This document shows, in pieces, positions 1,702-63,546 of a stretch of 64,000 nt of DNA. The notes under the pieces were generated by a model. The model had not been told where the DNA came from. It searched no databases and was given only the letters and a program-made list of their open reading frames with translations. Numbering within the stretch: the first letter of the stretch is position 1; the number at the start of each line of letters is the position of its first letter. Origin of the DNA: Arbacia lixula (lineage: Eukaryota > Echinodermata > Echinoidea > Arbacioida > Arbaciidae); assembly GCA_963669155.1 (NCBI GenBank), contig OZ022596.1:4241304-4305303 (forward strand). Reading direction: 5' to 3'. The position numbers and the translations under genes are program-made.

Positions 1702-1806
1702 CTTGTTTATCGTCCCCTTGCCAACGAGACGCCAAGTGCTTGGAGACCCGCCATGGATACACGTGCGACTGCGCTGATTCAGACTTTGGCTTCAACTGTG
1801 AGAAAG
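1702..1806 (+). CDS. Copy A exon 4: EGF-like domain
   Basis: This 105-bp phase 1-1 exon lies between a TCTTGCAG acceptor and a GTAAAA donor. It encodes one EGF-like module with six cysteines (AC, PC, KC, TC, DC, NC), including the HGYTCDC core and GFNC end. It is almost identical to the copy B exon at 60,256-60,360; the few visible differences are S/L near the first cysteine and SD/AH near the end. It lacks the D-x-D-E calcium site seen in the second EGF module. Confidence 0.85.
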
Positions 1807-4800
1807 GTAAAACGAAAGGTCTTTTTTTGTGCCGGATGTGCATTTTATCACAAATAATGCACACACCTACCATTAAGCGGCATTTTATCTGGCCCAAGAA
1901 GTGACAATTTCTCTAAATAGTGGAGGAGAGAATATTTCTTCATGCACATAAACGTGACATATCATTATTCTTATGACGAGGAGGCACACATTAACTTTCC
2001 TCGCTTTGTTTATCTTCCCCGATCTTTTGTCAGTAATATTCTCTTTATTTATCTTCAGCCTTTATTCTCTCCTTCTGTCCTTTTTTTCCCTTCATAAAAT
2101 GCGCTATATTGTTATAAGTACTCATAATCCTCGCTCGTATTTTTATACGATTTTAGTAAACTTGGCATAGACTTAATCTGCTAAGAAACCATTCCTAAAG
2201 TGGGGGTGAGGGGGGGGGGGGACAAGTATATGATACTTTAACCTTGAACCTTTAGGAAATTGTCGTTATATCTCTTCGTACTGAATAAATAAAGATAAAT
2301 TGCCGAATCAAGCACCGCGCAGCCACATGCAGAATTTGTCTGCAGTTATATATATTCGCGTCTGGTCTGGTGTATATGCGGTGTGGAGAATTGTCTGCTT
2401 TCTAAGTCGAATGACTTTCTTGCGTTCAGGTTGTCACACTTTCCACGGCCGTTAGTAATCAATGGGCTGTAAACACTGTCAATGAAATGAAATCTGTTCA
2501 TTCAGAGGATTAGCGTGCAAGAGTCACTATCAAAAACACATTTTTGTGACAATATTTTACATATTGTACCAATGATTGTGTACATAAAAACAATTATTGT
2601 TTCATTGTAAATCAATACGACTCTCCTGACTTTTAAATCAACATATGTCCTCACGTTTCTTTTCTTTTTATCAATAAATACCCCATTGGAATTAGATTGG
2701 ATTAGATATCGACACTAAACATGTTATCAATTATTTAGCTATTTATTTGGTGTTCGTTTTTTTAACACGATTCTTATTTGTACAGATCCTCTAGAATCGG
2801 GAAATATGTACATGGAATATTTTCCAGAGACGGATCATCTGACACTCATTATCAATGACGAACGATACTTGGTGTGCCAAGATGAATGGAGCGCTGCGGC
2901 TGCTGACGTGAGCTGCCGGCTGCTAGGGTTCAATCGGTCCGTACCCAGCCCGGGTAAAATGTTTTCTTCGTCTGCTGGACTCGCAGGAAGTAACATACTG
3001 GGAGTGCGCTGCACCGGCGGCGAACGGGATTTGAAGGAGTGCACGTTCCTGCCATCAATTCGCGCTTGCCCGTCAGATCGAATAGTCACACTGAAATGCT
3101 CAACAGGTAATTTAACTAACCTCTGATTATATATCAATTTTTGCCACATTTTATAATGTCTGTTTGGCAGGAGGTTGTGTAATACACTGTGTGCCTGGCT
3201 GCTTCAAAAACTTTTTTAAAAGTTTTGTATGCTATTATGAGCGTCATGAGACTTCATCATTAAGATCAGGTGGCGCGGTAAAGCGCTGTTGTGGTCCTCA
3301 CGGGAGCACGGCATAAAAATCTATCTTACGCCAAGCGTGTTGCACCCCCATCCCTTCCCTGGACACTCTCTTTATATCAAAGGTCCAAGATGTAGGTGGC
3401 CGACCTCTGCGACGCTTCCCTCCAATCGCACTTTGCAGTATCGTTTTTTTCAATTCCTTCCATTCTCCTAAAAATGTGTCTAAAGCACTTTTCGTTTTCA
3501 TTAGGTTTCGTTCCCTAATTATGTGTCAATCTTGTTCAGAACCCATACGTTTGTTGTCCTATCTTGCCAAGACACCTGTACAAGCCCCCTTTCTGCCATT
3601 CTTAGTCATGGCTCAAGGCTCGCATTCATATGTAGAAATAAAGAATGCAGTTGCACGAAAAAGTCGAACCTTCAGATTGAGTGACAGGCCTCGGCTTTTC
3701 CAGATATGAGACACTCTGTTCTGCACTGGTGATCTTCCTATTGCTAGTCTTCTCCTTATTTCTGTGGTGCTCTGCCCTTTGTTTTTGATTATAGATCACA
3801 CATATTTAAACTGACTAACTACGTCAATCTTCGTTCCATCTAAAGTGAAGACATTGTTGTTAAGGTCTTTGTCAACTATCATTATTTTAGTCTTTTTAGT
3901 ATTCAATAGAAGATTTTTCTCCTCACTCGCCTTTCTGATACGGTACAATTAGTCAATGAGCTCCTCTCTGCTGCTGCAAACTACAGTGGTATCATGTGCG
4001 TACCTCAGGTTTGTGATCCTTGTCCTCCCCCCCCCCCCCGAGATTCACTCCTTCATTGAAACCTTCCAGTACCACTCTCATGATGTCCTCAGCATAAATT
4101 TTAAAGAGGTTTGGAGATAGTATGCAACCCTGACGTACACCTCTTCCTATTCCAAACCATTCAGTATCCCCACTGCTTGTCCCCACTTTAGATTACTGGT
4201 CCAGATAAATTTGTTTCATCAGTCCTACTGTGTGTCTAGGGAATCCCATCTTTGTCATTGTATCCTACATTTGATTGTGGCTTACACAGTCGTCGAATGC
4301 CTTACTGTAGTCTATGAAGCACATACAGAGAGGGTGTTTGAGTTCTCTGCATTTCTTGATTATGTTTCTGATATCAACAGTCTGGTCTCTTGTACCCCTG
4401 CCTTCAAGAAAACATGCTTGCTCCTCTGAGATCTCTTCTTTCATCTTGATCTTCATTCTCCTGCTAATGATTTTCAGGAGTACTTTACTTGCATGACAAA
4501 CCAAGCTTATTGTCCGATGGTTTGAACATTCTTTCCTATCATGAGACAAGTTTGCTTTAAAATTATGATTTTCTTCACCAATTATGCCAATTTCAATACA
4601 GAAGCGGCCGAGGAGACGGCCATTGTGTACCCTGGCGGTGTGCGTCTCTCCGCCGGCAGTGCTCCTCACGAGGGCCGAGTGGAACTGGCCCTCTCTGGCC
4701 GCTGGTACCCGCTGTGCTCCAAGTACTGGGACGAATACCAAGCTGATGTTATCTGCCGCACTCTGGGCTACAAAGCTGTCTTACGCTTGTCGAGATGGTG

Positions 4801-62800: not shown

Positions 62801-63546
62801 TGTTATGGGAGAATGACCAATGACCTTTTCCAGAGATGTAATTCTCGTTTTGTTGGAAACGATATGCTTTTGGGAAAGTTCTTGTTCGAAGTTCAATAAT
62901 GAGAAAGTTAGGACATCAAGGGGTAAGACTAATGTCAATACAGTTAACTACTTTCTGCTTAAAACTATGTCACTATAAAACTGCATTTCTTCCTTTGTAC
63001 TTTACTTCCTTTCTGTGAATATAGTTGATAGGTACACCAGCATGTATCAATAAAGACAGTCAAGCTTTGAGAAGGAGAGGAGAAGGAGAAGACACCAAAG
63101 GAGACAAGTCAATCTAGTTTTGAGAGTTGGAGATTAACTCTAAGCTCTGTTGGTAGCGGTAAGCTTTGTTGTTACGCCATATTGTGCCATCGAAATGACT
63201 ACCGAAATGACTGAGGAAATAAACATCTGAAAACACAATTATACCTGTCGGCATCGTTGTATTATGAACGTGTACGTCTTCAAATATAGAAACCCGCACT
63301 ACTGGTACCAATCGTAATAGTATTACTCATTTAAAACTGCATGTGCATATATGCATATATATATATATGAAATATGAAATTATCCCTCGCGCAGGTCTAT
63401 TTCACCTCGGCCTTTGTCCTTCGGCCTCCCCCTTCCTTGTCACGTACTTACGAATACTTACGTAGAGAACCCCTCTTACCTTGGACTAGTAGTGAAGTCA
63501 GAATTATGGTCCAACGCATCACCTGTCGTCCATTCGTCATTGTCAT
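53497..63546 (-). CDS. Copy B: complete secreted EGF/SRCR multidomain protein, 8 exons
   Basis: Exons at 63546-63480, 63301-63245, 62389-62273, 60360-60256, 59039-58707, 58511-58113, 56078-55962 and 53861-53497 give 1,560 bp, exactly 519 codons plus TAA. All seven junctions are phase 1 with GT/AG ends. Order: signal peptide, short linker, 39-residue segment, EGF-like, SRCR 1, SRCR 2 with acidic insert, Ca-binding EGF, terminal SRCR. There is no membrane anchor, so a secreted protein, perhaps a coelomic-fluid or matrix recognition protein (inference from SRCR/EGF families). It is convergent with copy A. Exon 2 is the least certain part; skipping it would keep the frame. Confidence 0.8.
55740..55860 (+). 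repeat. Short dispersed repeat (also 9,380-9,520)
   Basis: GGGATAGTCCACCCTAAAC and GAAACATATTAGTGAAGGTTTGAT match the copy near 9,390. It lies in the last intron of copy B. Confidence 0.55.
55962..56078 (-). CDS. Copy B exon 7: Ca-binding EGF-like domain
   Basis: 117 bp, phase 1-1, GATTGCAG acceptor and GTAAGT donor. The peptide starts DKNEC, has six cysteines and an NAT sequon. It differs from copy A at only a few residues (MD to KN, G to A, T to P, I to L). Confidence 0.85.
58113..58511 (-). CDS. Copy B exon 6: SRCR domain 2 with acidic/polar insert
   Basis: 399 bp, phase 1-1. GGVRLSAGSAPHEGRVEL, RWYPLCSKYW, VCRTLGY, LMCEGDE, ECALG, FDC and GVVC mark a six-cysteine SRCR module. The insert after RWPDP (TSTLAVSDGKDSSAGNDGVD) has the same length as in copy A but different residues and fewer acids. 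Confidence 0.88.
58707..59039 (-). CDS. Copy B exon 5: SRCR domain 1
   Basis: 333 bp, phase 1-1, CTTACAG acceptor and GTAGGT donor. Six SRCR cysteines plus two extra: one in CWLLGF just after the second SRCR position (SCW) is the same residue as in copy A; the PPICGC motif gives one cysteine more than copy A (SIRAC). Four codons (VGGY) are inserted relative to copy A. A chance open frame continues upstream over the splice tract and looks like a hydrophobic leader. Confidence 0.83.
60256..60360 (-). CDS. Copy B exon 4: EGF-like domain
   Basis: 105 bp, phase 1-1, same acceptor (TCTTGCAG) and donor (GTAAAA) as copy A. Six cysteines with ACLLSPCQRDAKC, HGYTCDC and GFNC. Confidence 0.85.
60445..61735. 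other. Copy B-specific insertion in intron 3
   Basis: Copy A is continuous across this point (about 1,590-1,625), so about 1.3 kb is private to copy B or was lost from A. It contains short inverted motifs (GTTCTCCGATAACGGATAA and CGTTCTCCGAAAACGGAGAA) and a TTAACCGTAGCGGTTAA palindrome at about 60,893, but no recognisable gene or clear ends. Confidence 0.5.
61735..61975 (+). mobile_element. Fossil LINE C-terminal fragment in copy B intron 3
   Basis: Shares HLMRNEDLRTCQWHRGEN-like decayed frame and INWLDSLMKYLKE with 43,936-44,160, and the reverse complement of 1,380-1,575. Antisense to copy B. Confidence 0.6.
62273..62389 (-). CDS. Copy B exon 3 (39-residue segment)
   Basis: 117 bp, phase 1-1, CCATAG acceptor and GTAAGTGT donor. 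Starts CTCRMDSEGNVLVPKLKADP and ends GPVLKESLVEQ. Near-identical to copy C, which supports a coding role. No known domain; it links the N-terminal region to the first EGF module. Confidence 0.68.
63245..63301 (-). CDS. Copy B exon 2 (19-residue segment)
   Basis: 57 bp, phase 1-1, [18 protein letters not shown] with an NTT sequon, GTATAATT donor. Copy C differs at two residues. The weak acceptor leaves doubt whether it is always spliced in. Confidence 0.45.
63480..63546 (-). CDS. Copy B exon 1: start codon and signal peptide
   Basis: 67 bp from ATG to a GTAAGAGG donor, ending phase 1. MTMTNGRQVMRWTIILTSLL has a basic residue before a hydrophobic stretch. The second Met (residue 3) could also start. 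The ATG follows a TTTTTTTTTGCCAG acceptor directly, so a 5' untranslated exon lies further right. Confidence 0.62.

Follow-up and report, generated by a model that had tools for sequence, protein, structure and literature searches.

An old inverted duplication of an EGF/SRCR gene in Arbacia lixula, with possibly faster change in the last SRCR domain than elsewhere in the protein

CD163 and DMBT1 are long proteins that carry multiple SRCR domains. In those portions of a survey of 29 metazoan species that are drawn on here (PMC10855680), the group A (six-cysteine) SRCR genes of the sea urchin are described as expanded, 253 of 359 genes are placed in tandem clusters, and EGF-like is named as the most common partner domain of sea urchin SRCR proteins. 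The discussion of this survey treats sea urchin SRCR domains as single-exon units, but its results also report notably diverse exon-intron structures, and exon structure is therefore weak evidence of kinship. According to the part of a second study that is used here (PMC5521101), SRCR is among the innate-immunity families in which paralogues cause trouble, and 29 out of 217 innate-immunity genes remained for testing; that part gives no separate count for SRCR. Seen against these systems, the gene pair described below appears to be an unremarkable addition to a large and well-known gene family. A literature search with the literal term 'EGF-SRCR' alone found no instance of its exact domain order, which is weak evidence of novelty.

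The window, meaning the whole stretch of 64,000 nucleotides that was analysed, contains an inverted duplication that is both real and old. The sequence-only reading had proposed an inverted gene pair and suggested comparing the window with its reverse complement; self-comparison of the window gives a chain of inverted matches joining 1096-14114 with 62242-49281. A focused comparison, between the first 15 kb and the last 18 kb, yielded 20 matches, and 16 of them line up in a single colinear chain that spans 7716 aligned columns at 76.8% identity. The inverted pair is borne out by this chain, as its matches score up to 881 bits, far above the best inverted matches of 30-37 bits in five out of five mononucleotide shuffles. 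The two arms, as delimited by the focused comparison, are as follows.

1096 to 14114, plus strand: arm A of the inverted duplication, with gene copy A
49281 to 62242, minus strand: arm B of the inverted duplication, with gene copy B

Non-coding sequence common to both copies extends beyond the stop codons for 5.3 kb in copy A and 4.2 kb in copy B, in agreement with the approximately 5 kb claimed earlier. The aligned non-coding divergence of the arms is 0.213 over 5808 sites, a lower bound that excludes unalignable sequence, and the synonymous divergence (Ks) between the copies is approximately 0.27. Allelic divergence is normally far below both of these values. The gaps in the chain are insertions private to one arm, and two of the six tested inserts are flanked by direct repeats.

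3253 to 4538, no strand assigned: insert with a reverse-transcriptase fragment in the SRCR1-SRCR2 intron of copy A, with a 9-base flanking direct repeat
59085 to 59187, no strand assigned: 103-base insert in the intron before SRCR1 of copy B, with a 12-base flanking direct repeat

These repeats of 9 and 12 bases exceed the 8 bases reached at the 99th percentile among 300 random pairs; the longest flanking repeats of the other four inserts are 7, 6, 5 and 0 bases. An assembly error could in principle have produced the two arms, or two haplotypes could have been placed next to each other. An aligned non-coding divergence of approximately 0.21 argues against an allelic assembly duplicate, each arm holds its own insertions, and N bases are absent from the whole window, so that such an origin was judged highly improbable. 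Near both ends of arm A, at 9-727 and 14106-14861, lies a 75%-identical repeat in opposite orientation. Beside the first of these, at about 690-758, is a stretch resembling the head of a tRNA-derived SINE (a B-box-like match; the rest by eye).

Copy B, on the minus strand, is the more complete of the two genes. Its model comprises 7 coding exons from 63546 to 53497, with 500 codons plus a stop in a single unbroken frame, and the junctions are GT-AG and of phase 1. The domain order is predicted signal peptide, 39-residue segment, EGF, SRCR1, SRCR2, EGF and a degenerate SRCR3.

63480 to 63546, minus strand: exon 1, predicted signal peptide, 22 codons and the first base of the next, with ATG, GT donor in phase 1 and the hydropathy peak; the cleavage site is a putative one
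62273 to 62389, minus strand: exon 2, N-terminal segment of 39 residues with two cysteines (gene model)
60256 to 60360, minus strand: exon 3, EGF with six cysteines (gene model, Pfam)
58707 to 59039, minus strand: exon 4, SRCR1 with seven cysteines, against six in copy A (gene model, Pfam)
58113 to 58511, minus strand: exon 5, SRCR2 with six cysteines (gene model, Pfam, PDB matches)
55962 to 56078, minus strand: exon 6, EGF with six cysteines and a D-x-N-E-C start (gene model, Pfam, pattern)
53497 to 53861, minus strand: exon 7, degenerate SRCR3 with four cysteines and the stop codon (gene model, Pfam)

A frame of 519 codons over eight exons had been described for this copy; the absence of any break was confirmed, while the length and the exon number were not reproduced. 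At 63918-63868 on the minus strand, an open stretch of 17 codons (by eye) shares the frame of exon 1 and could represent an additional 5' exon, which would bring the total near 519 codons. Its counterpart in a third, partial copy (copy C, below) differs in length by 13 bases, which better suits a largely untranslated exon. The best 19-residue Kyte-Doolittle mean of copy B, 1.05 by plain hydropathy, falls at the hydrophobic N-terminus. The protein of copy B is thus probably secreted, as judged from its sequence alone. The earlier description of a secreted pair is supported for this copy and was not reproduced for copy A, whose signal-peptide exon was not found in the window.

Domain assignments were scored on the open frames that hold the exons. 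SRCR1 and SRCR2 exceed the Pfam SRCR cut-off in all four frames (30.4-60.6 bits against 26.1), as do all four EGF exons for the Pfam EGF cut-off (23.0-25.8 bits against 21.5). Six cysteines are present in SRCR2 and in SRCR1 of copy A, and seven in SRCR1 of copy B; SRCR2 of copy B also has an internal acidic and serine-rich stretch (by eye). The best PDB sequence matches of SRCR2 are CD163/M130; in total, 29 distinct PDB sequences match it at an E value of 0.01 or lower. A search for relatives of SRCR2 in viral contigs returned 11 pattern-matching stretches, none of which was confirmed. SRCR3 scores below the curated SRCR cut-off in both copies (18.0 and 17.4 against 26.1 bits), and a PDB search with it up to E 10 yields three NOL9 chains (E 0.73-0.81) and no SRCR proteins. 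Its AlphaFold model, built from two sequences, has a pLDDT of 37, too poor for a fold search. Four of the six cysteines remain in SRCR3 in the six-exon alignment, at identical positions in A and B, so the loss probably predates the duplication. The two missing positions are presumably the C2-C7 pair, that is, one disulphide. The 39-residue segment of exon 2 matched none of the Pfam families up to E 1, and its only two PDB matches (E 0.77 and 0.81) were taken as chance. The second EGF had been called calcium-binding. Of the patterns that we take to mark this class, exon 6 of both copies has the D-x-[DN]-[EQ]-C start and fails the Asp/Asn hydroxylation pattern, and Pfam lists EGF, not EGF_CA.

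In copy A, on the plus strand, the last five exons (3-7) were found, open through 434 codons to the stop and with splice sites kept.

1702 to 1806, plus strand: exon 3, EGF (gene model, Pfam)
2786 to 3106, plus strand: exon 4, SRCR1 with six cysteines (gene model, Pfam)
4602 to 5000, plus strand: exon 5, SRCR2 (gene model, Pfam)
7587 to 7703, plus strand: exon 6, EGF (gene model, Pfam)
8462 to 8823, plus strand: exon 7, SRCR3 with four cysteines and the stop codon (gene model, Pfam)

The claim that A and B share intron phases was upheld (phase 1, GT-AG junctions), and the claimed common domain order holds over exons 3-7; exons 1-2 were not found in A. Homology between A and B ends at position 1096 of A, 31 bases inside intron 2, and within the window, upstream of exon 3, neither exon 1 nor exon 2 was recovered by tblastn (E up to 1), nor was exon 2 by a local profile. 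The only plus-strand match of the exon-2 profile under E 0.1, at 19821-19934 (E 0.036), lies downstream of A and was taken as chance. A palindrome at 7010-7130, in the intron before the second EGF exon, is perhaps a hairpin-type transposon remnant (by eye). The missing 5' end is what would be expected if copy A were a pseudogene without promoter and signal-peptide exons, with B alone at work. Its five open exons and kept splice sites speak against this, as does a pairwise Ka/Ks of 0.14-0.41 in four of the five exons, although one functional copy alone would pull the ratio below 1. A pseudogene is accordingly regarded as possible, yet doubtful.

The spacer between the arms occupies 14115-49280, approximately 35 kb, which is the length reported before. 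Its description as mobile DNA was supported in part: when 16 open frames of the spacer were scanned with Pfam, 5 matched RVT_1 with an E of 0.01 or less, none of them reaching the curated cut-off.

39410 to 39631: RVT_1 match, below cut-off (Pfam)
31456 to 32040: RVT_1 match, below cut-off (Pfam)
28167 to 28319: RVT_1 match, below cut-off (Pfam)
47801 to 47968: RVT_1 match, below cut-off (Pfam)
39167 to 39409: RVT_1 match, below cut-off (Pfam)

The sole RVT_1 match above the cut-off comes from the frame at 4265-4780, inside arm A. Just past the end of arm B, at 47881-49040, are three tandem copies of a 389-base unit, the start of which overlaps with a weak RVT_1 match. At 12047-12759 and 18665-19383 lie two direct copies (79%) of an element that has inverted ends of its own, and one of these copies is an insert in arm A.

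The spacer also holds a third, partial copy of the gene, which is absent from the sequence-only reading.

43924 to 46818, minus strand: copy C, direct repeat of the 5' end of B (self-comparison, gene model)
46446 to 46380, minus strand: exon 1 of copy C, with the same protein as that of B (tblastn, gene model)
44585 to 44469, minus strand: exon 2 of copy C, with three codons changed relative to B, two of which alter the amino acid (gene model)

The modelled junctions of copy C are GT-AG and of phase 1. Identity to the 5' region of B is 90.1% over 43924-45594 (against 61723-63368), 97.6% over 46266-46602 and 84.6% over 46596-46818. In the window downstream of copy C, tblastn (E up to 1) and local six-frame profiles revealed no SRCR or EGF exons; the extra profile matches, at E 0.036 (the plus-strand match of the exon-2 profile) or above 0.3, were taken as chance. 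With copy C and the missing 5' end of A, the locus is more complex than first noted.

The earlier suggestion of a duplicated and diverging SRCR/EGF pair is supported, and the divergence is uneven, with an excess of amino-acid changes in the last SRCR exon. Over exons 3-7 together (433 codons), Ka/Ks between A and B is 0.52. By exon (Nei-Gojobori, with bootstrap 95% intervals), the ratio is 0.15 (0-0.89) for EGF, 0.39 (0.19-0.79) for SRCR1, 0.41 (0.22-0.75) for SRCR2, 0.14 (0.03-0.53) for the second EGF and 1.01 (0.63-1.71) for SRCR3, the last interval spanning 1 and overlapping those of EGF, SRCR1 and SRCR2. Ka is 0.29 in SRCR3 against 0.04-0.12 in the other four exons, while Ks of the whole SRCR3 exon, also 0.29, is within their range of 0.19-0.38; a locally high mutation rate therefore does not explain the ratio. 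Synonymous and non-synonymous counts of SRCR3 differ from those of the other four exons (Fisher P 0.001) and from those of the two SRCR exons alone (0.006), SRCR3 having been chosen post hoc from five exons.

In SRCR3, aligned codons 12-23 also cover an 8/5-base length change that is compensated. Without these codons, Ka is 0.215, Ks 0.188 and Ka/Ks 1.14 (interval 0.62-2.62), and a frame-shift artefact was consequently rejected as the source of the Ka excess. When a second divergent stretch is also removed, the values are 0.18, 0.149 and 1.21 (0.59-3.72). Compared with the other four exons, the whole exon gives a Fisher P of 0.001, and the two trimmed versions give 0.0013 and 0.003. Trimmed SRCR3 still has a Ka above that of the other exons, and the rise in ratio stems from lower Ks; with Ks down to 0.19 and 0.15, the scarcity of synonymous changes accounts for some of the high ratio. 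In neutral simulations with substitutions only, the SRCR3 frame stays open in 3-15%. Clustering of the SRCR3 changes was rejected as a sign of selection, the tests being non-significant (P 0.085 and 0.116). SRCR3 may thus be changing faster than the rest of the protein, and it is relaxed or diversifying, two states that cannot be separated with two sequences.

Taken together, these findings very probably reflect an old segmental duplication, in inverted orientation, of a secreted EGF/SRCR gene, giving rise to the convergent paralogues A and B, with fragment C added later and SRCR3 under relaxed or diversifying change. After the duplication, the introns of A and B would have taken up separate insertions. 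B would have remained intact, encoding a putative secreted extracellular protein that may bind ligands, while A would retain the downstream domains, its 5' exons lying outside the window or being lost. A later duplication would then have left the copy of the 5' end of B in the spacer. EGF, SRCR1, SRCR2 and the second EGF appear to be under purifying selection between copies and probably maintain the protein's shape and its principal contacts; SRCR3, changing faster and staying open, could be a relaxed or a diversifying ligand contact. A more elaborate scheme, with a constrained EGF/SRCR scaffold, a terminal SRCR lacking two conserved cysteines that diversifies as a variable recognition face, and copy C as a signal-peptide cassette feeding further variants, seems quite unlikely.

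A role in immune recognition is suggested by the family to which the protein belongs. The protein could instead be an adhesive or matrix component, since marine-adhesion papers mention SRCR or EGF domains: in the portions used here, a study of the sea anemone pedal disc (PMC6626399) contains both terms, and one on sea star adhesion (PMC9382459) contains EGF domains, with SRCR domain absent as a term. The fast-changing last SRCR leans slightly to recognition, and nothing here separates the two; an adhesive role is considered rather unlikely. The last SRCR domain most merits follow-up. If it is truly diversifying, the locus would allow a compact test of the idea that SRCR proteins of invertebrates vary a single domain and hold the rest constant; otherwise, it would record a further SRCR duplication in a family already noted for expansions.

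In its SRCR2, the protein matches CD163/M130, DMBT1 and other solved SRCR proteins by sequence; unlike CD163 and DMBT1, it combines three SRCR and two EGF domains in 500 residues. With the sea urchin SRCR superfamily, as portrayed in the portions of the survey used here (PMC10855680), the locus shares single-exon SRCR domains, EGF partners, clustered duplicates and the group A cysteine pattern, the last in SRCR1 of copy A and in SRCR2. It differs from that superfamily in its inverted pair, where tandem clusters are described, in a last SRCR with four cysteines, and in an N-terminal segment without a named family.
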